A stretch of 64,000 bases of DNA from an uncultured bacterium. Lineage in GTDB: Bacteria; Pseudomonadota; Alphaproteobacteria; Rhodospirillales; Rhodospirillaceae. Below the pieces are notes generated by a model. That model saw nothing but the letters and a program-made list of their open reading frames with translations. It was not told the origin of the DNA and searched no databases. Of the stretch, positions 39,325-50,238 are shown piece after piece (positions within the stretch are counted from its first letter, which is position 1; every line of letters begins with the position of its first letter). The stretch lies in contig CAISTS010000005.1 in the NCBI GenBank assembly GCA_903888485.1, forward strand, positions 1 through 64,000, given 5' to 3'. Position numbers and translations under genes: made by a program.

Positions 39325-39900
39325 ATGACCTCACCACAAGTCCTAGTCGAGATCGCGCCGCCTGCCTATGACGTCGATCTCTTCATCGCCTACGCCACGG
39401 CAGAGAATTTCACCGGCAAGCCGGTCTACGCGCGCCCGGCCTGCTACCTTCATCCCGATGCGGCCGCGTGCCTCACGCATGCCATCGAACTCGCCCGCCC
39501 CCTTGGCCTGCGCTTCAAGGTATTCGACGCCTTCCGTCCTTCCGAAGCACAATGGGTGCTGTGGAGTCATACGCCGGACCCTGAGTTCCTCGCCGATCCG
39601 CGCCGCGGCTCGCCGCACTCCATGGGCGTCGCGGTGGATCTTACGCTCGTGGATGGATCGGGCGCGGAACTCGATATGGGCACCGCCTTCGACGCCTTCA
39701 CACCGCGCTCGCACCACGGCGTGCATGACATTTCGCCCGAAGCCCAGCGCAACCGCGCGCTCCTGCTGGGTCTCATGACGGCGGCGGGCTGGGACTTCTA
39801 CCGCAATGAATGGTGGCACTATCAACTTTTCAAGCCGCGCGACCGCTATCCGGTACTGAGCGACAAGGCGCTCGCGCAATCGATGATGCCATCTGGCTAG
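39325..39900 (+). CDS. ddpX: D-alanyl-D-alanine dipeptidase (VanX/DdpX family)
   Basis: 191 residues from ATG 39325. Zinc peptidase of family M15. Zinc site SPHSMGVAVDLTL (S-x-H-x6-D, near 97-106) and the catalytic NEWWHYQL (E-x2-H, near 161-165) are intact. FDAFRPSEAQWVLWS is also family-typical. There is no signal peptide, so it is cytoplasmic; likely role is recycling D-Ala-D-Ala from peptidoglycan. Divergent from tsaB (57 nt) and tail-overlapping hemY by 4 nt. Confidence 0.92.
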   Translation: MTSPQVLVEIAPPAYDVDLFIAYATAENFTGKPVYARPACYLHPDAAACLTHAIELARPLGLRFKVFDAFRPSEAQWVLWSHTPDPEFLADPRRGSPHSMGVAVDLTLVDGSGAELDMGTAFDAFTPRSHHGVHDISPEAQRNRALLLGLMTAAGWDFYRNEWWHYQLFKPRDRYPVLSDKALAQSMMPSG

Positions 39901-41147
39901 GCTTGCGCCAGAATCTCGGCGGCGGTTTTCGGCTTACGTCCGGCGCGCGCCGGTGCGCGTTGGATCTTCAGTGCAAGATCGAGCCATTCGGCGGCCTTGT
40001 TGGCGTCGCCGCGTTCGCGCCGTTCGACGTCGGCCAGCAAGTGCGCGGCGCGGGCGCGCACATCGGGCGGCGCGTCCGAGCCTGTCAGGCCGGCGAGCCG
40101 GTTACGCGTTTGTCCCCACAACTCGGCCTCCAGCGAAGCTTCCGCCACGGCGAGGCGACTTTCGGGATGATCGGGCGCGGCCTTGGCGAGCGCATCGATG
40201 CGCCGCGCCCAATCGAGCGCCGACTCGCCTGGCACTAACGCGCGATAGGCCGACAGTAACTCCGCGTTGGGTTTAACCGCCCAGGCGCGTTCAACCGCGC
40301 CCGCCGCCTTGCGGCCCTTGCCTTGCGCCGTCATCGCTTTGGCAAAAGCCGCGACAGCCGCGGGGTTGGTGTCGTCGATATCCATGGCCTTCTTCGCGGC
40401 ATTGGCGGCGCTGGACGCATCGCCGTGGCCGAGCATGGCCTGGGCTTGCAGCGTGTAAAGACGCGACCGCAGGCGCTTGAGTTCGGTGGGCGAAAACGCA
40501 TCGCGCGCGAGCTTTTCATCCAGCACCGACAGCGCCTCGTTCCAACGCTCCGCGCTGACTTCCATGTCGAGCACGATCTGCAGCGCCCAGGCCGGCGCAT
40601 CCTTGCGGCCCATGGCGCGCCGGGCATGGCCAAGCGCGCCGACGATATCGCCGTCGCGCATGGCCTTCTCGGCGAGCGAACGCAAGCCGGCGAGTTCGGT
40701 CTCGGGCCGCGCCAGCAGCGCTTCGGCGGCTACTTGCATCTCGCGCGCGTCGCCGGCGAGAACCGCCGCGTCCTTGCGCAGCACCAGCACGGCCGGGTTG
40801 TCGTTCAGCAGCGTGCCGGCTTCTTTGGCGAGCTTGCGCGCGGCCTGGCCTTGGCCGGCCTGCACCGCGGCAAAGCCGTCGCCCAGGCTGACGAGGCCGC
40901 GCTTCAAGCGCCGCTCGCGGCGCGCGAGGGTGAAGGCCTCGACGCGGCCGCTGAGGTAAGACCAGAGCTTCGCGAGCAGCAGAATGACGATCACCGCAAC
41001 GATGATCGCGGCGATCAGGACGCCGACCGAAGTGTCGATCTGCCAGCCGCGCCAGGTCATGCTGACGGTGCCGGGATTGTTGGCGAGCCACACTGCGGCG
41101 GCGACGAGCGCCGCGACGGCGGCGATAAAGAGGATCAGGCGCGTCAT
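39897..41147 (-). CDS. hemY: HemY-family membrane protein with TPR domain
   Basis: 416 residues. Two N-terminal transmembrane helices (LILFIAAVAALVAAAVWLA and GVLIAAIIVAVIVILLLAKL) frame a short loop with SMTWRGWQIDTSVG, the HemY_N signature. The rest is Ala-rich helical repeats of TPR type (QAQAMLGHGDASSAANAAKK, ADVERRERGDANKAAEWLDL). This is the proteobacterial hemD-linked HemY, distinct from Bacillus protoporphyrinogen oxidase of the same name; its molecular role is uncertain. It starts 4 nt after the HemD-Mic60 fusion gene, so it is surely co-transcribed with it. Confidence 0.92.
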   Translation of the reverse strand: MTRLILFIAAVAALVAAAVWLANNPGTVSMTWRGWQIDTSVGVLIAAIIVAVIVILLLAKLWSYLSGRVEAFTLARRERRLKRGLVSLGDGFAAVQAGQGQAARKLAKEAGTLLNDNPAVLVLRKDAAVLAGDAREMQVAAEALLARPETELAGLRSLAEKAMRDGDIVGALGHARRAMGRKDAPAWALQIVLDMEVSAERWNEALSVLDEKLARDAFSPTELKRLRSRLYTLQAQAMLGHGDASSAANAAKKAMDIDDTNPAAVAAFAKAMTAQGKGRKAAGAVERAWAVKPNAELLSAYRALVPGESALDWARRIDALAKAAPDHPESRLAVAEASLEAELWGQTRNRLAGLTGSDAPPDVRARAAHLLADVERRERGDANKAAEWLDLALKIQRAPARAGRKPKTAAEILAQA

Positions 41148-41151
41148 TGAA

Positions 41152-44100
41152 CTAGGGCCCGCTTGCCGATGGCGTGTCTTTCGCCGCGGCGTTGAGTGCG
41201 GCGATGGCTTTGGTCGTCAGCTCAGCGCTGGCGCGCTCGGCGGCCACACGCATGCGGGCGTCCGCGAGCCACGTCGCAGCAGCTGTGGCGGCCCCGCCGC
41301 GCAAGCCCTCCATTTCGCTCACCGCGGCCGCGAGATCGCCTTCGTTCAGACGCTGTTCAGCGCGCGCGAGCACCGCCGAAGTCCCGGTGCCGGCGGCATC
41401 GCCGTCCAGGCGGCGTACCGTAACGATCGACATGGCGCGGTCGAAGATGCGCCGATACCACGCGCTGGTGCCGTCGGGCATGACGCTGGCGCGCATCGCC
41501 GCGGCGGCAGCCGGGCGGAAGCGGCGCTGCAGTTCGGGCAATGCCGGAATGCCGCGGGCGGCGGCGCCGGCGAAAGTGCTGTCGTCGAGCGCGAGGCCCG
41601 ACCGCGCGGAAAGCGCCTTAGCGGTTTCCAGCTCGAGGGCAAAGCCGCGTCCCGTGATGAGCGCCTCGCGCAGCTGCGACAGCGACATCAACAGCGCGAT
41701 GTTCGCGCTCTGCTCGTTCATGGTGCGCCGGGCCGTGGTCTCGACGGCGGTGACGCGGTCGGCCAGCGCCAGCACGCTGTTGGCGTCGGCGCTCTTGCCT
41801 TCAAGCGCGTTCAGACGCTTGCTCAAGTCTTCAAGCCGCGCCGTGTTGCCGATGGCCGCTTCCAGCGTGGCGATACGCGCGGTGACGGCAGCGAGCTGCT
41901 TCGCTTGGCTCGACAGGCTGTCACCTAATGAACTCACCGCGCCTTCATCTTGGGCGATGCCGGCGCGGCTTTCGAGCGCGGTCAGCCGCTGCGTCAGCGC
42001 GGTGAGCGCGTCGCCCTTGATGCCGCCTTGTTCGACCGCATTGAGGCGCGCGTTGAGCGCGCCGATGTCGGCCTGCACACCCGGGACGGATCCGCTGACG
42101 GTGGGAGTGGATGCCGGTGCGGGCGCTGCCGGCGCGGCCTCCTCGGCGATGCGGCTGGTGATCTGCGGCAGGTAGCGCGATGCGGCCACCACGGCGACCG
42201 CGGCGATGAGCACAAGAATGACAAATACGCCGACGGCGCGGCTTCCGCCGCTACGGCGCAATTCCGGTGGCGGCGGTGTCGCGGTCGCACGCTCGGCCGC
42301 CGGGTCGGATTCGGGCGCGGGTGTTTCGTTCTGGCCAAAGTACTTGTGGCGTCCGCCTTGTTGCGCGCGCATGTCGGCGGCGTCTTCGGCCAGCAAGCGC
42401 GCCGCGCGCCCGCCGCTGCGCGCGGTGGCTTTGGATTCGACCGCGCTGTCCGCATGGCTCCCGTCGAGCGGGGTCAGCACGGGCGTTGCCGCGGGCGGGC
42501 TCGCATGGCCTTCCGCCGCCCGGTCTTCCTCGGGTGCATCGCTGCGCGGGGTTGTCTGTCTCAGCTGTTCTGCCACGGACATATCTTCCTTTGCTTGCGG
42601 CGGATCGGGCGGCGGCGGGGCCGCGGGCTCTGGTTCTAGGACCGGCGCAGGCGCGGGCATTGTAGCCGATGCGGGCGCGCTCGCCATGGTGCTGTGCACC
42701 ATCTCGGTAACGGTTTCGGTTTGTATTTCAAAGTTCTGGGCGTCCGTACGTTCCCCCGAACGCTCTAAGGTGACGCCCAGCGGCATGTCCCAAGGCGGGC
42801 CGCCGATGTTTTCCGGTGCCGGCTCCGATGGGGCGCGGGTGCGGCCGACCCAGGAGCGCAGCCGACTGGCCAAACCGGGCCGGGGCGGCGCGTTGGCTTG
42901 GATGCGGGCCCGCTCTTCTTCCTCGGCGCGCCGGCGTGCGGTTTTCTCGGCTTTTTCGGCGGCGGCCTGCTCGGCGCGTTCCTGGGCGCGGCGGGCCTTT
43001 TCGGCTTTAGCCGCTTCGGCGTGCTCGCGCTCGGCGCGCGCGCGCAGGGCGCGTTCCTCGTCCTTACGCTGCTGTTCCGCGCGCTTGGATTCGGCGCGTT
43101 CGCGTTCACGCTGCTCGTTCTGAAGGCGCTCGGCAGCGATGCGTTCAAGTTCTAGACGGTCGAGCTCGGCTTGTTCGGCGTTGCGTTCGGCGACACGCTC
43201 GGCTTCGGCACGCTCGGCTTCGGCGCGCTGTTGTGCGATGCGCTCGCGCTCGGCTTGGACGGCGGCGCGTTGCGCGGCCAGGGCGCGTTCCCGCTCCGTC
43301 CGTTCGGCGGCAAGACGCTCGTGTTCGATGCGATCGGCTTCGGCCTGTACCTGCGCAAGCCGTTCACGCTCGGCCTTTTCGGCTGCGTGCTGTTCGGCGA
43401 GGGCGCGGTCGCGTTCAGCGCGTTCGACGGCCAGGCGCTCCTGTTCGATGCGATCAGCTTCAGCTTGAGCGCGCGCTACTCTTTCGCGTTCGGCCTGTTC
43501 AGCGGCGCGCTGCTCGGCCAGGACGCGCTCTCGTTCCGCGCGGTCCGCGGCCAGCCGTTCCCGCTCGATACGGTCGGCTTCTGCTTTTTGTCGGGCCAAG
43601 CGTTCACGCTCGGCGCTTTCGCGGGCCAGGCGTTCGGCTTCCTGCCGCCGTTGCTCGGCGAACGCCAGAGCCAGCCGCTCCTCTTCCGACTTGGCGAGCG
43701 CGATGCGCTCCTGGGCGAGGCGCAAGTTCTCCGCTTCCTCAGCGGCGAGGCGTTCCGCATCGATGCGGTCGCGCTCCGCTTGCTCGGCCGCAGCTCGCTC
43801 ACGCGCGGCCTTCTCGGCGGCGGCCTTCTCCGCGGCGATGCGGGCGCGCTCGTTGCGTTCCTTCGCTTCGCGTTCCCGTTCGATCCGATCCTTCTCCGCC
43901 CGTTCAGCCAGGAATTTCTCGCGGGCTATGCGATCCGCTTCTATGCGCTCCTTGGCGATCCGATCACGTTCGGCCTGTTCGGCGGCTGCTTTCTCGGCGG
44001 CAATGCGGTCGCGTGCTGCGCGCGCGGCGGCAAACTGCTCCATGGCGGCGCGGTCGGCATCGGCGCGTTCCTTGACGATGCGTTCGCGTTCGGCCTTGTC

Positions 44101-45348
44101 CGCCGCGGCTTGTTCCTTTGCTAGGCGTTCCCGTTCCGCCTGAGCGAAGGCGGCCCGTTCACGCGCCGCCTTATCCTGCGCTGCGCGTTCAATATCTGCC
44201 AGCCGCCGCGCCTCGCGATCCCTGATCGCCTGTTCTTCCGCGCGCCGCTTGCGTTCAGCAGCTTCGCTTTCGGACTTCACGCGCGCGGCCTCGCGGGCAA
44301 TGCGTTCTTGCTCGGCCCGCTCGCGCTCGGCTGCGGTGCGCTCCGCGCGTTCCGCGGCGAGGCGCTCAGCGTCGATGCGTGCCTTCTCCGCCTCTTCGCG
44401 TTGAACGCGTTCAAGCTCCGCCCTTTGACCGGCGAGGCGTTCTTCCTCGGCGCGCCGGCGTTCGGCTTCTTCTTTGGCGCGCGCCGCGCGCTCGGCGGCC
44501 TGGCGTTCAGCCTCCTCACGTTGGGCGCGTTCACGCTCCGTCTTCTCACGGGCGAGGCGTTCTTGTTCGGTGCGCTGACGTTCAGCCTCTTCCTTGATGC
44601 GTGCTTCACGGGCGAGGCGTTCGTCCTCGACTTTGTCGACCAGCTTGCCGTCGAGTGCGCCGAACACCGTGTCCAAATCGGCGGCGGCCGGCACACTGAC
44701 GCCGCCGAGCTTGAGCGCGCGGAGCGGCGCGGCGACCACCGGCGTTGCCGCCACCACGGGAAGCGTCTTGACCAAAGGTTCCAATTCGGAGCGCTGAATC
44801 AGTTGAACGAAGGCGCGCGCCTCGTCCGCCGATAGAAACAGCGCGGCATCGATCGTTTTGTTTTCGAGCCCGCTGCGTAAGAGCGCGGGCACATCATCGG
44901 CGCGTTTAAGGGCGTACAGCGGCAGTGGCCGCACGGCGAAGCCCATGTTGCCAAGCATGGCAGACAGATTGATGGGCGCGGCGGTGCTGCAGGCATAGAT
45001 CAACGCGCCGTTCGCGGGCTTCAGGCTGCGCTCGACCAAGCGCGCGAGGTCCGCGGAGTCGTCCTTGGCTGCGCTGACATTTTTGAAGCCGAGTCGCCGC
45101 AGTTCGGCAGCCGTCACTTCGCTGTCGGCGAACACCGGGAACGTGCGCACGCCGACATTGTCGGCCAAGGCGCGCGCGCCTTCCGCGCTGGTCACCATGA
45201 AGCCTTGCGCGGCGGTCAGATTGATCTTGGGATTGGCCGTACGTTCGGCGATGACCAACGGCGCCGCCAGCACGCTGTGGCCGCGCGCTTGCAGCGCCGC
45301 CACCGAGGCCTTTGCGTCGCCGGCCGATTGTGCAATCAGAACCCGCAT
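41152..45348 (-). CDS. Giant fusion: uroporphyrinogen-III synthase-like domain, charged helical rod, transmembrane segment, mitofilin (Mic60)-like domain
   Basis: 1398 residues in one frame. Residues 1-232 are HemD-like: RVLIAQSAGDAKASVAALQA, MVTSAEGARALADNVG, AALFLSADEARAFVQLI, VPAAADLDTVFGAL. The usual N-terminal TRP is AQS. Residues about 238-817 are almost entirely E, R, K, A, Q: a coiled coil or single charged helix, with 40-residue repeats at 580-699. Residues 818-1036 are a Pro/Ala/Glu-rich linker, and 1037-1059 a single transmembrane helix (GVFVILVLIAAVAVVAAS). Residues 1060-1398 resemble alphaproteobacterial mitofilin (COG4223), with NIALLMSLSQLREALITGRG and ALAELEGL-like VSEMEGLRGGAATAAATWLA. 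In relatives hemD and mic60 are separate genes before hemY. Confidence 0.85.
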   Translation of the reverse strand: MRVLIAQSAGDAKASVAALQARGHSVLAAPLVIAERTANPKINLTAAQGFMVTSAEGARALADNVGVRTFPVFADSEVTAAELRRLGFKNVSAAKDDSADLARLVERSLKPANGALIYACSTAAPINLSAMLGNMGFAVRPLPLYALKRADDVPALLRSGLENKTIDAALFLSADEARAFVQLIQRSELEPLVKTLPVVAATPVVAAPLRALKLGGVSVPAAADLDTVFGALDGKLVDKVEDERLAREARIKEEAERQRTEQERLAREKTERERAQREEAERQAAERAARAKEEAERRRAEEERLAGQRAELERVQREEAEKARIDAERLAAERAERTAAERERAEQERIAREAARVKSESEAAERKRRAEEQAIRDREARRLADIERAAQDKAARERAAFAQAERERLAKEQAAADKAERERIVKERADADRAAMEQFAAARAARDRIAAEKAAAEQAERDRIAKERIEADRIAREKFLAERAEKDRIEREREAKERNERARIAAEKAAAEKAARERAAAEQAERDRIDAERLAAEEAENLRLAQERIALAKSEEERLALAFAEQRRQEAERLARESAERERLARQKAEADRIERERLAADRAERERVLAEQRAAEQAERERVARAQAEADRIEQERLAVERAERDRALAEQHAAEKAERERLAQVQAEADRIEHERLAAERTERERALAAQRAAVQAERERIAQQRAEAERAEAERVAERNAEQAELDRLELERIAAERLQNEQRERERAESKRAEQQRKDEERALRARAEREHAEAAKAEKARRAQERAEQAAAEKAEKTARRRAEEEERARIQANAPPRPGLASRLRSWVGRTRAPSEPAPENIGGPPWDMPLGVTLERSGERTDAQNFEIQTETVTEMVHSTMASAPASATMPAPAPVLEPEPAAPPPPDPPQAKEDMSVAEQLRQTTPRSDAPEEDRAAEGHASPPAATPVLTPLDGSHADSAVESKATARSGGRAARLLAEDAADMRAQQGGRHKYFGQNETPAPESDPAAERATATPPPPELRRSGGSRAVGVFVILVLIAAVAVVAASRYLPQITSRIAEEAAPAAPAPASTPTVSGSVPGVQADIGALNARLNAVEQGGIKGDALTALTQRLTALESRAGIAQDEGAVSSLGDSLSSQAKQLAAVTARIATLEAAIGNTARLEDLSKRLNALEGKSADANSVLALADRVTAVETTARRTMNEQSANIALLMSLSQLREALITGRGFALELETAKALSARSGLALDDSTFAGAAARGIPALPELQRRFRPAAAAAMRASVMPDGTSAWYRRIFDRAMSIVTVRRLDGDAAGTGTSAVLARAEQRLNEGDLAAAVSEMEGLRGGAATAAATWLADARMRVAAERASAELTTKAIAALNAAAKDTPSASGP
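43252..43611 (-). repeat. Three tandem 120-bp repeats encoding 40-residue helical units
   Basis: Within the charged rod, residues 580-619, 620-659 and 660-699 repeat the pattern ERER(L/V)A-x2-QAEADRIE-x-ERLA-x2-RAERERxLAEQxAAxxA. Examples are QKAEADRIERERLA, AQAEADRIEQERLA and VQAEADRIEHERLA. A fourth copy after 43251 is degenerate (QRAEAERAEAERVA). Recent duplication by unequal recombination is the simplest explanation, and repeat number could vary between strains. Confidence 0.85.
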
Positions 45349-45399: not shown

Positions 45400-46458
45400 A
45401 TGATCATCCTGGGAATCGAGACGAGCTGTGACGAAACCGCCGCCGCCGTCATGGATGGCGAGGGCCGCATGCTGTCGCATGCGGTTTTGAGCCAAATCGC
45501 CGAGCATGTGCCCTACGGAGGCATCGTGCCCGAGATCGCCGCACGGGCGCATCTCGCCCATCTCGATCGGCTGGTTGAAAAAGCCATGGCGGATGCGGGC
45601 GTGGACTACGCCGATCTCGATGGTGTCGCGGCCACGGCGGGTCCCGGCCTTATCGGCGGTGTATTGGTCGGTTTGATGACGGGCAAGGCCATCGCCGCGG
45701 TGCACGACATTCCGCTGATTGCGGTCAATCACCTCGAAGGTCATGCGCTGACGCCGCGGTTCACTGATAAGGTCGCCTTTCCCTATCTGCTTCTCCTGGT
45801 CTCGGGCGGACATTGCCAGCTTCTCGCCGTCGAAGGCGTAGGGCGTTATCGCCGTCTCGGCACCACCGTCGACGATGCGGCAGGTGAAGCCTTCGACAAA
45901 GTCGCCAAGATGCTCGGCCTTGGATATCCGGGCGGCCCGGCCATCGAGCGCGCCGCGCGCGAGGGCGATGCCCAGCGCTTTGCGTTTCCGCGCCCGATGA
46001 AGGGCAAGGCCGGCTGCGATTTCTCCTTTTCGGGTTTGAAGACCGCGGTGCGTCTCGCTGCTGAAGCGCTGCCGCCAGGACCGCTCGCGGAGAAGGACGT
46101 GAACGATCTCGCGGCCTCGTTTCAGGCGGCGTTGGTTGATTCCATCGCGGATCGTGTGGCGCGCGCCGCCGAGATGTTCAAGAACATCCATCCGAATGGC
46201 ACAACTCTGGTGGTCTCGGGCGGGGTTGCCGCCAACAGCGCCCTGCGGAGTACACTGGCGAATACGGCGAAGCGCGCGGGACTGACGTTGGTCGCGCCGC
46301 CTGTGGCGCTGTGCACCGACAACGCCGTGATGATTGCGTGGGTCGGTGTCGAGCGTTTGAAGCTCGGACTGACGGACTCGCTTGATGTAAAAGCGCGGCC
46401 CCGTTGGCCGCTCGATCCGACCGCGCCCAAGGCCGGCGGCGCGGGAGTGAAAGCCTAA
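45400..46458 (+). CDS. tsaD: tRNA N6-adenosine threonylcarbamoyltransferase
   Basis: 352 residues. Transfers the threonylcarbamoyl group to A37 of ANN-decoding tRNAs, with TsaB. Motifs: [20 protein letters not shown], the iron-binding histidines in [10 protein letters not shown] (near 111 and 115), [40 protein letters not shown] and [17 protein letters not shown]. Divergent from the HemD-Mic60 fusion with only 51 nt between; in many alphaproteobacteria hemC occupies the facing position. Tail overlaps the epimerase gene by 4 nt. Confidence 0.97.
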
Positions 46459-47465
46459 ACTTTATAAAAGTCGCGGAACCAGGCGACGGTTTCGCGCAGA
46501 CCATCATCCAGGCCGATCGTCGGCTTGTAGCCGACCGCGCGTTCGAGCGCACTGACGTCGCACCAGGTACCTTCGACGTCACCGGCCTGGATCGGCATGA
46601 AGTTGAGTTGCGCTTTTTTGCCGATGTGCTTTTCGAGCGTGGTGATAAAATCCATCAGATCCACCGGTGCGCCGCGCCCGATGTTGTAGACGCGGAAGGG
46701 TGCCACACCGCTGGTGTCCGGTGTCGGCGCGTTCGCATCCCATTCTTCATCGACCGTCGCGATGTGGTCGGTGACGCGCACCACGCCTTCGACGATGTCA
46801 TCGATAAAGGTGAAGTCGCGCTTCATTTGGCCCTGGTTATAGACGTCTATGGGCTCGCCCTTGAAAATCCGCGCGGTGAACTTTTGCGGCGCCATGTCGG
46901 GCCGTCCCCAGGGACCGTAGACCGTGAAGAAGCGCAGGCCTGTCATGGGAATTCTGAAAATGTTCGCATAGGAATGCGCCAGCAGCTCGTTGGCGCGTTT
47001 GGTGGCGGCATAGAGGCTCATCGGATGCGAGGCGCTGTGATGCTCGGCAAAGGGCATCTTTTTATTGGCGCCATAGACTGAGCTGGTCGAAGCGTAAACC
47101 AGGTGCGGGATCTCCAGCGCGCGTGCCGCTTCCAGCACGTTCATGAATCCGGTGAGGTTGGAATCGAGATAAGCCTGCGGATTATCGATGCCGTAACGTA
47201 CGCCCGGCTGGGCGGCCAGGTGCACAATGCGGGTGGGCTTGGTCTTGGCGCAAAGTTCGAGAAGCGCGGTCTTGTCGGCAAGATCGAGCCGGTGCGCCGT
47301 AAAACCGCCGCGGGACTCCAGCCTCGCCCAGCGGGCTTCCTTGAGCGTTACGTCGTAATAAGGAGTGAAGCTGTCGACGCCGTGGACGCGCCGGCCTTCC
47401 CGAAGGACGCGCGCGGCGACGTGCGATCCGACAAACCCGGCGGCTCCCGTCACAAGAATGGTCAT
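46455..47465 (-). CDS. NAD-dependent sugar-nucleotide epimerase (UDP-glucuronate 4-epimerase type)
   Basis: 336 residues from ATG 47465. Extended SDR: Rossmann [39 protein letters not shown] (signature of UDP-glucuronate/UDP-galacturonate epimerases such as LspL/CapI), [17 protein letters not shown], catalytic [11 protein letters not shown] (Tyr, Lys), [20 protein letters not shown] and [16 protein letters not shown]. Product would be UDP-galacturonate for lipopolysaccharide or capsule. Its reversed orientation between tsaD and gpsA suggests insertion into an otherwise conserved gene string. Confidence 0.88.
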
Positions 47466-47561
47466 GGATATTGGTCTAGGCTGATTTTGCTCGGCAGTGC
47501 AACGGTCTTGCCCCGATACTGTTCCGAGGCTATGCCAGTTGGCGTACGAAAGGGAGCGTAG

Positions 47562-48575
47562 ATGCAGCGCGTAGGGATCATCGGCGGCGGCGCCTGGGGC
47601 ACGGCCTTGGCCGTAGTTGCGCGCCGTGCCGGCCGCGATGTGACACTTTGGGCGTTGGAACCCGAGGTCGTTGCGGCCATCAACGCCCAGCACCGCAATC
47701 CCTTGTACCTGCCCGACGTGCCATTGGACCCAGGCATCGCGGCGGTCAGCGACATGACCAAAATCGCGGGCGCCGACATCATTCTCCTCGTTGCCCCCGC
47801 GCAGCACGTGCGCAGCGTCTGCAAAACGCTTGCGCCTCAACTCAAATCCGGCACGCCTATGGTGATCTGCGCCAAGGGCATCGAACGCGGCACCTCGGCG
47901 CTGATGACCGACGTCGTCACTGAAGCTTTGCCTCAGGCGGCAATGATGGTGCTGTCGGGTCCGACCTTCGCCGCCGAAGTCGCGCGCGGGCTGCCCACGG
48001 CCATCACCCTCGGTGCTACCGATCCCATCCAGGCCCGCAAGGTCGCGGAAGCGATTAGTTCGCCGACATTCCGGCCCTACCTCTCGGACGATGTGGTGGG
48101 CGCCGAAGTCGGCGGCGCGGTCAAGAACGTCTTGGCCATCGGCTGCGGCATGGCCGACGGTAAAGGCCTGGGTGCCAACGCCCGGGCGGCTCTGCTCGCG
48201 CGCGGGCTCGCCGAAATCGTGCGTCTGGCTGTGGCACGCGGCGGCCGGCCCGAGACGCTGATGGGGCTGTCCGGCCTCGGCGACCTCGTGCTCACCGCCA
48301 CATCGCTGCAGTCGCGGAACTATTCCCTCGGTGTTGCGTTGGGAAAAGGCCAGACGCTCGACGAGGTCCTGGGCGCGCGCCGTTCCGTCACCGAAGGCGT
48401 CACCACGGCCGAAGCGGTCGTCACCCTCGCGGCAAAACTCAAAGTCGACATGCCCATCTGTGCTGCCATCGATCGCGTGCTTAATCACGGAGCGTCCATC
48501 GACGCTATGCTGAAGGGGTTGCTCGAGCGTCCCCTGCGTGATGAAGTTGACGCACCCACCAAGCGCCCGTCATGA
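47562..48575 (+). CDS. gpsA: Glycerol-3-phosphate dehydrogenase [NAD(P)+]
   Basis: 337 residues; ATG 47562 preceded by AAAGGGAG. Makes sn-glycerol-3-phosphate from DHAP for phospholipids. Rossmann motif VGIIGGGAWGTALAVVA, PMVICAKGIERGTSALMTDV, LSGPTFAAEVARGLPTA, the catalytic lysine in EVGGAVKNVLAIGCGMADG, and ETLMGLSGLGDLVLTATSLQ. Works upstream of PlsC. Followed by the GDP-mannose gene after 10 nt. Confidence 0.96.
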   Translation: MQRVGIIGGGAWGTALAVVARRAGRDVTLWALEPEVVAAINAQHRNPLYLPDVPLDPGIAAVSDMTKIAGADIILLVAPAQHVRSVCKTLAPQLKSGTPMVICAKGIERGTSALMTDVVTEALPQAAMMVLSGPTFAAEVARGLPTAITLGATDPIQARKVAEAISSPTFRPYLSDDVVGAEVGGAVKNVLAIGCGMADGKGLGANARAALLARGLAEIVRLAVARGGRPETLMGLSGLGDLVLTATSLQSRNYSLGVALGKGQTLDEVLGARRSVTEGVTTAEAVVTLAAKLKVDMPICAAIDRVLNHGASIDAMLKGLLERPLRDEVDAPTKRPS

Positions 48576-48585
48576 GGAATATGCC

Positions 48586-50238
48586 GTGAGCAAGCCCGTG
48601 CGCCTTTATCCGGTGATCCTGTCCGGCGGCAGCGGCTCGCGTCTGTGGCCCTTGTCGCGTGAAGAGTTTCCCAAGCAGCTTCAGCCGCTGACCTCGGAAC
48701 GCAGCCTCCTCCAGGAGACCGCGCTGCGTCTTGGCGAGGCGGCGGGAACCACCTACCAGGTTCAGCCGCCGATCATCGTTTGCAACGACGCGCACCGCTT
48801 TGTCGTTGCCGAGCAACTGCGCGCCGTCGGCATCGAGCCCAAGGCCATCATCATCGAGCCGCAGGGACGCAACACTGCGCCGGCCGCCTGCGTTGCGGCC
48901 CTGCTGCTCGAGAAGGAGCCCGATGCGCTAATGCTCGTGATGCCGTCCGATCACCTGGTGCGCAGTCCCGAAGCCTTCCGCGCCGCCGTCGCCGCCGCAG
49001 TGCCGGTGGCGCGGAGCGGCCATCTCGTGACCTTCGGTATCAAGCCCACCGGTCCCGCCACCGCTTACGGCTATATCAAAGAAGGCGCTGCGCTCACCGA
49101 CGCCGCCAACGCCGTGGAAAAATTTGTCGAGAAGCCCGACGCCGTCACGGCCGCCAACTTTCTCAGGAGCGGTGGTTACTACTGGAACGGCGGCATCTTC
49201 CTTTGGCCCGTCGGACTCTACCTCAGTGAGCTGGATGCCAACGAGCCAATGATCGGACCCGGCTGCCGCACGGCCCTGGCCGAAGGCCAGAACGATCTGT
49301 TCTTCTTCCGTCTCGATGCGACCGCCTTCGCCAAGGTGCCGGCGCAATCCATCGACTACGGCGTCATGGAACGCACCGACAAAGCCGCCGTCGTGCCCGT
49401 GGACATGGGCTGGTCCGACGTGGGCTCCTGGAGCGCGCTGCATGAAGAGGCGGAGCACGATGCCGCCGGCAACACCACCCTCGGCGACGTGGTCGCGGTC
49501 GATACGCGCAACACCTACATCCGCACGGAAAAGCAGCTCACCGCCGTCATCGGCATCAAGGATGCCATTATCGTGGTCACGCCCGATGCCGTGCTCGTGG
49601 CCGACAAAGCGCACGATCAGCAGGTCAAACAGGTGGTCGAGCGCCTGAAAGCCGCCGGCCGGAGCGAAGCCACGGCGCAAGCGCGCACCCATCGCCCCTG
49701 GGGCTGGTTCCAGACCATGGACGAAGGGCACCGCTTCAAGGTCAAGCGCCTGTGCGTGAAGCCCGGTGCGAAGCTGTCGCTGCAAAAGCACTGGCACCGC
49801 AGCGAACACTGGGTCGTGGTCACCGGCACGGCCCTGGTCACCTGCGGCGAAAAGGAATTCACGCTGCGCGAGAACGAATCTACGTACATCGCCGCCGGCA
49901 CGGTGCATCGTCTGGCCAATCCCGGCCACGTGGAACTCCACATGGTCGAGGTGCAGTCGGGCGAATACGTCGGCGAGGACGACATCGTGCGCATCGCCGA
50001 CGATTACGGCCGCCAAGGCGACGACAAGCCCGCGCGCGAAAAGCCGCGGGCGAAGCCGGCTAAGAAGAAAGGCGCGCTGAAGAAGTCGACTCGCAAGCGC
50101 GTACGGCGCAAGGCCAACCCGGCCGCGGCGCTGCGCCGCCGCGTGGCGCGTCGTGTGGTGCGCCCACCGACGCAGGTCAAGACCAAGCGCCCGCCCAAGA
50201 AAACACCGCCGAAAGCCCCGCCGCGCAAGCGGCGCTAA
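48586..50238 (+). CDS. manC: Mannose-1-phosphate guanylyltransferase / mannose-6-phosphate isomerase with basic C-terminal tail
   Basis: 550 residues from GTG 48586 (GAGGAAT upstream); an ATG at 48538 would overlap gpsA. Makes GDP-mannose for exopolysaccharide or LPS. Nucleotidyltransferase motif YPVILSGGSGSRLWPLSREE, then PKQLQPLTSERSLLQET, VEKPDAVTAANFLRSGGYYW and ESIDYGVMER-like QSIDYGVMERTDKAAVVPVD. The cupin isomerase domain (about 370-475) has AKLSLQKHWHRSEHW. Homologues end near IADDYGR; here 74 further residues follow, over 40 % Lys/Arg with many Pro, such as KKSTRKRVRRK and PPKKTPPKAPPRKRR. Confidence 0.92.
   Translation: MSKPVRLYPVILSGGSGSRLWPLSREEFPKQLQPLTSERSLLQETALRLGEAAGTTYQVQPPIIVCNDAHRFVVAEQLRAVGIEPKAIIIEPQGRNTAPAACVAALLLEKEPDALMLVMPSDHLVRSPEAFRAAVAAAVPVARSGHLVTFGIKPTGPATAYGYIKEGAALTDAANAVEKFVEKPDAVTAANFLRSGGYYWNGGIFLWPVGLYLSELDANEPMIGPGCRTALAEGQNDLFFFRLDATAFAKVPAQSIDYGVMERTDKAAVVPVDMGWSDVGSWSALHEEAEHDAAGNTTLGDVVAVDTRNTYIRTEKQLTAVIGIKDAIIVVTPDAVLVADKAHDQQVKQVVERLKAAGRSEATAQARTHRPWGWFQTMDEGHRFKVKRLCVKPGAKLSLQKHWHRSEHWVVVTGTALVTCGEKEFTLRENESTYIAAGTVHRLANPGHVELHMVEVQSGEYVGEDDIVRIADDYGRQGDDKPAREKPRAKPAKKKGALKKSTRKRVRRKANPAAALRRRVARRVVRPPTQVKTKRPPKKTPPKAPPRKRR

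Follow-up and report, generated by a model that had tools for sequence, protein, structure and literature searches.

A single gene in the window, a stretch of 64,000 nucleotides from an uncultured bacterium of the Rhodospirillaceae, joins a domain with the fold of uroporphyrinogen III synthase (HemD) to the C-terminal domain of Mic60 (mitofilin). The fusion gene and both of its end domains are real, and such fusions are widespread in the family and in the class. In the clade of the window organism the fused HemD domain is under purifying selection and, judging from the residues it has exchanged and from its genome context, has probably lost catalysis.

The fusion gene and its parts

The minus strand from 41152 to 45348 is one open frame with an ATG start (ORF list and translation). 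The earlier note had described the same uninterrupted 1398 codons without giving the strand. The gene, its parts and its neighbors are as follows:

41152..45348, minus strand: hemD-like/mic60 fusion gene, 1398 codons plus stop
44644..45348, minus strand: HemD_B domain, residues 1-235, uroporphyrinogen III synthase fold (Pfam, fold search, alignment)
42889..44631, minus strand: charged rod, residues about 240-820, pentad E/R/K/A repeat, probably single-alpha-helix-like
42241..42888, minus strand: Pro/Ala/Ser-rich linker, residues about 821-1036 (sequence), presumably on the cytoplasmic side
42172..42240, minus strand: single transmembrane helix, residues 1037-1059 (hydropathy; a helix in the model, at low confidence)
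41206..41742, minus strand: mitofilin (Mic60) C-terminal domain, Pfam stretch 1203-1381
39897..41147, minus strand: hemY (HemY_N plus TPR protein), 4 nt downstream of the fusion gene
45400..46458, plus strand: tsaD, divergent, head to head with the fusion gene

The HEM4 profile (PF02602) matches residues 16-226 of the fusion protein (E 1.6e-20, 73.7 bits against a curated cut-off of 27.5), and the Mitofilin profile (PF09731) matches residues 1203-1381 (E 1.1e-15, 58 bits against 27.4), covering profile positions 434-613 of 614. The HemD-like N-terminus and mitofilin-like C-terminus proposed in the earlier note are thus both recognized above their cut-offs. The remainder of its layout, with a charged rod of ~580 residues, a linker, a single transmembrane helix and hemY 4 nt after the gene, agrees with the composition, the hydropathy (a single strongly hydrophobic stretch of 19 residues beginning near 1038, mean 3.12) and the ORF coordinates.

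Four types of HemD are distinguished here. Type A carries the canonical motifs; type B, which is without several of them, comprises the window genus and genera g5, g11, g19, g20, g21 and g22; type C is a standalone HemD; and type D is a third HEM4 type (125 bits). A direct sequence search of the HemD_B domain against the PDB gave chance matches only and was uninformative, so a type A HemD profile and a fold search were needed. The profile-profile match of B to type A has a probability of 100 and an E value of 1.6e-41. A model of residues 1-300, made with six relatives (pLDDT 78, pTM 0.50), consists of an alpha/beta HemD followed by one helix (225-299); its 12 best Foldseek matches in the PDB are all uroporphyrinogen III synthases (3re1, E 3.1e-14; TMt up to 0.74). 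In the model of residues 1020-1398, helices follow the transmembrane segment, mostly with pLDDT <50 before about residue 1200, and the chain is helical beyond. With this model, largely of low confidence before ~1200, the PDB fold search returned no solved relative of the mitofilin part at E <= 0.001.

The usual alphaproteobacterial operon, as given in an excerpt of PMC7641849, is hemC-hemD-IMMP(mitofilin)-hemY and lies divergent to tsaD. The gene order at the fusion locus matches such Mic60 loci (HemD part, hemY, divergent tsaD), minus hemC, which is absent there; the neighbor in the window genome is tsaD. The hemY product matches HemY_N (E 4.2e-15) and, by its domains, is a TPR protein with HemY_N and no enzyme. 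Beyond tsaD, between it and gpsA (45400-48575), an epimerase-like gene (named by eye; 46455 to about 47498) runs in the opposite direction; this arrangement differs from the tsaD-gpsA order given in that excerpt. A mannose-1-phosphate guanylyltransferase-like ORF, also named by eye, lies at 48538-50238 on the plus strand and has a Lys/Arg/Pro-rich basic C-terminal tail of ~70 residues. Mic60 is a crista-organizing subunit traced to alphaproteobacteria (excerpt of PMC12631773), and in other alphaproteobacteria it is reported to bend membranes or to be needed for intracytoplasmic membranes (excerpt of PMC12136173). The parts of the literature consulted gave no explanation for the position of Mic60 among heme genes. 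No paper describing a hemD-mic60 fusion was found in the literature searched, and the main bacterial Mic60 papers might describe one.

The earlier note had asked whether an assembly join or a frame break could underlie the gene. HemD and Mic60 lie in one uninterrupted frame, 1180-1457 aa from stop to stop, in 13 of the 19 genomes of the genus (own included). This recurrence rules out an assembly join. Contig ends cut the fusion in three others (G049, G052, G058), and frame breaks do occur in the last three: G044 and G051 (rod) and G059 (HemD). Six further records, five full-frame and one broken (L038), match six of the counted genomes in length and score and are therefore not extra evidence. 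Over all 37 type B loci, 23 are intact, 8 are cut at contig ends and 6 are broken (G044, G051, G007, G059, G006, G008), the break falling in HemD_B in G006, G008 and G059. In G006 several frames share the broken HemD_B part, and Mic60 is encoded in a separate frame of 550 aa; thus, the domain can be lost. A simple tandem-repeat artefact was also considered and rejected; TRF gives three imperfect arrays in the gene, the longest of 375 bases.

Distribution of the fusion and of the charged rod

HEM4 matches were found in 67 of 73 family genomes: 27 of type A, 37 of type B, two untyped (G011, G017) and one with a C-type gene only (G067). All 27 type A genomes have one HEM4 match each; HemD and Mic60 share one frame in 21 of them and occupy separate frames in six (G013, G019, G020, G021, G024, G030). 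The class sample consisted of 153 genomes with completeness >= 90%, of which 126 have HEM4. The loci inspected there were all 30 with a HEM4 frame >= 480 aa and 10 with shorter frames; 24 are fused, 11 have the domains apart and 5 are undecided. At least 24 of the 153 genomes, in 20 other families, therefore have HemD and Mic60 in one frame. Mitofilin was called in the surveyed genomes with a model built in this analysis. When run against Pfam, seven family fusions matched both HEM4 and Mitofilin (7/7), and ten of the 24 class fusions matched HEM4 in 10 and Mitofilin in 8 (not L135, L137). The search for the same domain order in related genomes, suggested in the earlier note, was thus positive at the level of genus, family and class. 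The fusion may be old and later split, or may have had several independent origins.

In two of the class frames, L137:3152-5653 and L135:3096-5492, the region separating HemD from Mic60 gives a weak Cro/YdaS-like match that stays under the curated cut-offs. The three HEM4 matches of genome G095 have identical scores, and two of these lie in nearby, inverted frames of 1040 aa (L121, G095:C1:1-8000); this is perhaps an assembly artefact.

The rod of the window protein is 52% charged and rich in Ala, Glu and Arg, and 513 of its residues (308-820) are free of Pro and Gly. Its charges recur every 5 residues. At the i,i+4 spacing opposite charges are enriched (z +8.8) and like charges depleted (z -9.9), and the LIVMF residues give no heptad signal (z 0.3 at 7). 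This is the signature of a single alpha-helix (SAH) and not of a coiled coil, against which the missing heptad signal speaks. On this pattern the rod is probably SAH-like. A self-identity of 44% at a lag of 40 residues suggests growth by repeat duplication. According to the excerpt of PMC5347031, SAH domains typically have 40 to about 200 residues and a persistence length of about 15 nm. With the latter value, and supposing a monomeric helix, a rod contour of 77-87 nm would give an RMS reach of about 43-47 nm; the reach of up to about 85 nm in the earlier note is too high as a typical distance. If it is a true single alpha-helix, the rod is ~3x the usual upper SAH length.

Among the proteins measured, the rod is confined to type B. 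All 45 type A fused proteins measured have linkers of 9-242 aa without a rod. A helix-like charged stretch of 353-671 aa is present in the linker of 18 of 25 type B proteins and absent in seven, five from g11 and g22 with linkers of 43-225 aa and two (G009, G010) with Pro-rich linkers of 550-654 aa. The rod, absent from all of the A proteins measured and some of the B ones, is therefore a trait of part of B and not of the fusion itself. Second copies of identical sequences were dropped from this measurement and from the typing (L002, L033, L035-L040, L022, L005, L006, L014, L017, L021, L011).

Residues, selection and genome context of the fused HemD

Residues were compared over 28 columns that are >=95% conserved in 62 type A HemDs, using 33 B and 31 C rows; a second copy of the own genome's C gene was left out, as were five diverged A rows (L004, L147, L150, L159, L160). 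In the typing and alignment step this C gene was counted twice, and HemD pieces under about 200 residues were omitted. Five conserved residues are kept in C and nearly or wholly lost in B: the R of TRP (31/31 in C versus 3/33 in B), V (30/31 versus 0/33), G (30/31 versus 3/33), D (30/31 versus 0/33) and a second R (27/31 versus 0/33). A Tyr is kept in both (31/33 in B, 31/31 in C). In the window protein the type A residues are replaced by Q7 (R), D75-S76 (V-G), N127 (D) and D175 (R), and Tyr145 is kept. Over all 28 columns B keeps 58% and C 63%; the gap is small because B retains positions lost in C. Mean identity to type A HemD amounts to 31% in B and 24% in C, and B has near-invariant residues of its own, among them F50, C120, N134, M135, R149 and E176.

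Type D is also without R, V, D and R (0/5), so the loss of these residues alone proves no inactivity. By a reading of the alignment, the R and V-G of type A are shared by three aligned Pseudomonas/Shewanella structures, and the D and second R are not. The active-site residues of HemD show low conservation between the P. aeruginosa and human enzymes in the excerpt of PMC3539698, and literature searches for substrate-contacting HemD residues yielded no usable source. The type D members are L001:1441-2253, L026, L027, L032 and L120; the one in L001 adjoins a cobyric-acid-synthase-like ORF (named by eye), and that of the own genome lies ~17 kb from hemC and hemE.

The two trees made are quick and unrooted, with long branches flagged. 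In the HemD tree B forms one group (support 99, starred) and C forms one group apart from A+B (87). In the HemY+TsaD tree, which included nine of the 27 genomes typed as A, these nine rows lie on one side of a branch with support 99 (starred), and the B rows lie on the other together with three untyped rows (G006, G008, G059) that carry broken B domains. The change would have run from A to B, since A is spread over many families. HemD_C may have come by gene transfer or from an old duplication.

In the 12 closest pairs of genomes the omega of HemD_B is 0.05-0.21. It is lower than the value of the mitofilin part in 10 of these 12 and lower than that of hemY in 5 of the 10 pairs with a computable hemY. 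Pairs among G007, G009 and G010 give 0.11-0.16 at dS 1.3-2.1, G010's own values being 0.11-0.14. The exception is G042-G043, with an omega of 0.51. In 347 of the 351 pairs, which are non-independent, formed from 27 genomes carrying both domains, similarity is higher for HemD_B than for HemD_C (means 0.53 versus 0.41).

The own genome has three HEM4 matches, on contigs C5 (the fusion), C45 (type C, between cysH and hemB) and C23 (type D); its one hemC is on C23 next to hemE, and its one mitofilin match is in the fusion. Of the 37 B genomes, 31 have a standalone HemD_C, in every case next to hemB. It was undetected in G044 (76% complete), G049 (89%), G009 (88%), G041 (97%), and G006 and G010 (98-99%). 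In G009, hemC and hemB lie near contig starts, and HemD_C may therefore be in a gap; G041 has another HEM4 gene (L004) beside hemC. The gene hemC adjoins the fusion in each of the nine fully read A loci of the family and in none of the 37 B loci, where tsaD is the neighbor. Neither G006 nor G010 has a match to hemB, hemC or hemE; for ferrochelatase there is no match in G006 and one weak match, below the cut-off, in G010. The fused HemD_B of G010 is intact.

Ten genomes of g5, g11 and g22 (G006-G010, G018, G065, G068-G070) had no hemE (PF01208) match, a gap in the usual heme route. Several of them have hemB, hemC and HemD_C, and G008, G009 and G068 have ferrochelatase. Photosynthetic membranes were considered as a context and set aside on the lack of a Photo_RC match in the 19 genus genomes; among 14 controls only Synechococcus matched, so that sensitivity for purple-type centers is not established.

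A proposed pseudo-enzyme on Mic60, and comparison with known systems

The best explanation, which is favored with some reserve, is a bitopic inner-membrane Mic60 whose cytoplasmic N-terminus would end in a HemD-fold pseudo-enzyme, together with a history and a tether role as outlined here. Starting from the operon hemC-hemD-mic60-hemY, hemD would have fused to mic60, becoming the sole HemD of the genome in many relatives. In the window clade uroporphyrinogen III synthesis would then have passed to the standalone HemD_C beside hemB, hemC would have left the old locus, and the fused HemD would have lost a set of conserved residues while being kept by selection for another task. The linker would have grown later, in most lineages, into the charged SAH-like rod of 350-670 residues. 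The periplasmic mitofilin part is expected to cluster where the inner membrane curves or forms contacts, and the rod would hold the pseudo-HemD tens of nm (RMS about 45 nm) out in the cytoplasm; there the domain may bind a putative partner, either a protein or a tetrapyrrole as a signal. Held far out and binding a partner, the protein is proposed to be a long-reach tether or spacer; the chances of such an adaptor or tether role are about even. The broader picture, an enzyme welded to Mic60 that turned, after takeover by another HemD, into a non-catalytic adaptor on an unusually long SAH and so into a new part of the bacterial Mic60 system, could equally be right or wrong.

Catalysis would not have been lost if HemD_B were still an active uroporphyrinogen III synthase that ties tetrapyrrole synthesis to Mic60 sites. 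Its fold and the retained Tyr145 are in keeping with activity, as are the single HEM4 match of all 27 type A family genomes (fused in 21), the poor conservation of HemD active-site residues between P. aeruginosa and man in the excerpt of PMC3539698, and the lack of the same residues in type D. An active enzyme is nevertheless unlikely: R, V-G, D and R are lost in B and kept in C, hemC is at none of the 37 B loci while a second HemD lies by hemB in 31, and the domain persists in G010, in which no hemB, hemC or hemE was found. The fold could also serve a tetrapyrrole sensor that would bind hydroxymethylbilane, uroporphyrinogen or heme without turnover and signal to a putative target, Mic60 or HemY. 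The constraint on the sequence and the near-invariant residues of B, which include C120 and R149, would suit a sensor, but the lost residues are those conserved in type A enzymes, and G010 makes no uroporphyrinogen by the usual route as far as found; a sensor seems a rather improbable account.

A HemD part that survives as a mere remnant of the old fusion, passively kept for being in frame, would agree with the broken domains of G006, G008 and G059 and with the omega of 0.51 in G042-G043. This reading is hard to reconcile with an omega that is low in the 12 closest pairs and, in 10 of these, lower than for the mitofilin part, with the greater likeness of HemD_B than of HemD_C in the 347 of 351 (non-independent) pairs and with the B-specific near-invariant residues, and it is very improbable.

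The link between tetrapyrrole synthesis and membrane shape drawn in the earlier note is unsupported in the window organism, given the lost residues, a hemC that is no longer adjacent, the standalone HemD by hemB and the domain kept in G010. It does fit the type A relatives, whose single HEM4 match is the fused HemD, and is a good hypothesis for them. These fusions make it testable whether uroporphyrinogen III is synthesized at Mic60 sites, and the B clade offers a natural experiment in which the chemistry of the enzyme is set apart from its role as a Mic60 domain. If the pseudo-enzyme explanation is true, pseudo-HemD and rod would recruit or space something at a distance of tens of nm from the inner membrane.

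The window protein resembles other alphaproteobacterial Mic60 proteins in its C-terminal mitofilin domain, the one transmembrane segment before it, hemY downstream and tsaD divergent upstream, and differs from the usual ones in the N-terminal HemD domain, the giant rod and the missing hemC at the locus. By profile and fold HemD_B is like uroporphyrinogen III synthase (PF02602; PDB 3re1, 4es6); unlike that enzyme, it has R, V-G, D and R replaced, is joined to a membrane protein and has other HEM4 proteins beside it in the genome. Type A hemD-mic60 fusions, counted here in 21 family and 24 class genomes, share the domain order, with hemY next in the loci read far enough, but have canonical residues, the sole HEM4 match in family genomes, a rod-free linker of 9-242 aa and an adjacent hemC (9/9). 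The rod itself is like SAH (ER/K) domains in being E/R/K-rich, with opposite charges at i,i+4 and no heptad; those described in the excerpt of PMC5347031 have 40 to about 200 residues, whereas the window rod has about 580 and sits in a bacterial membrane protein.
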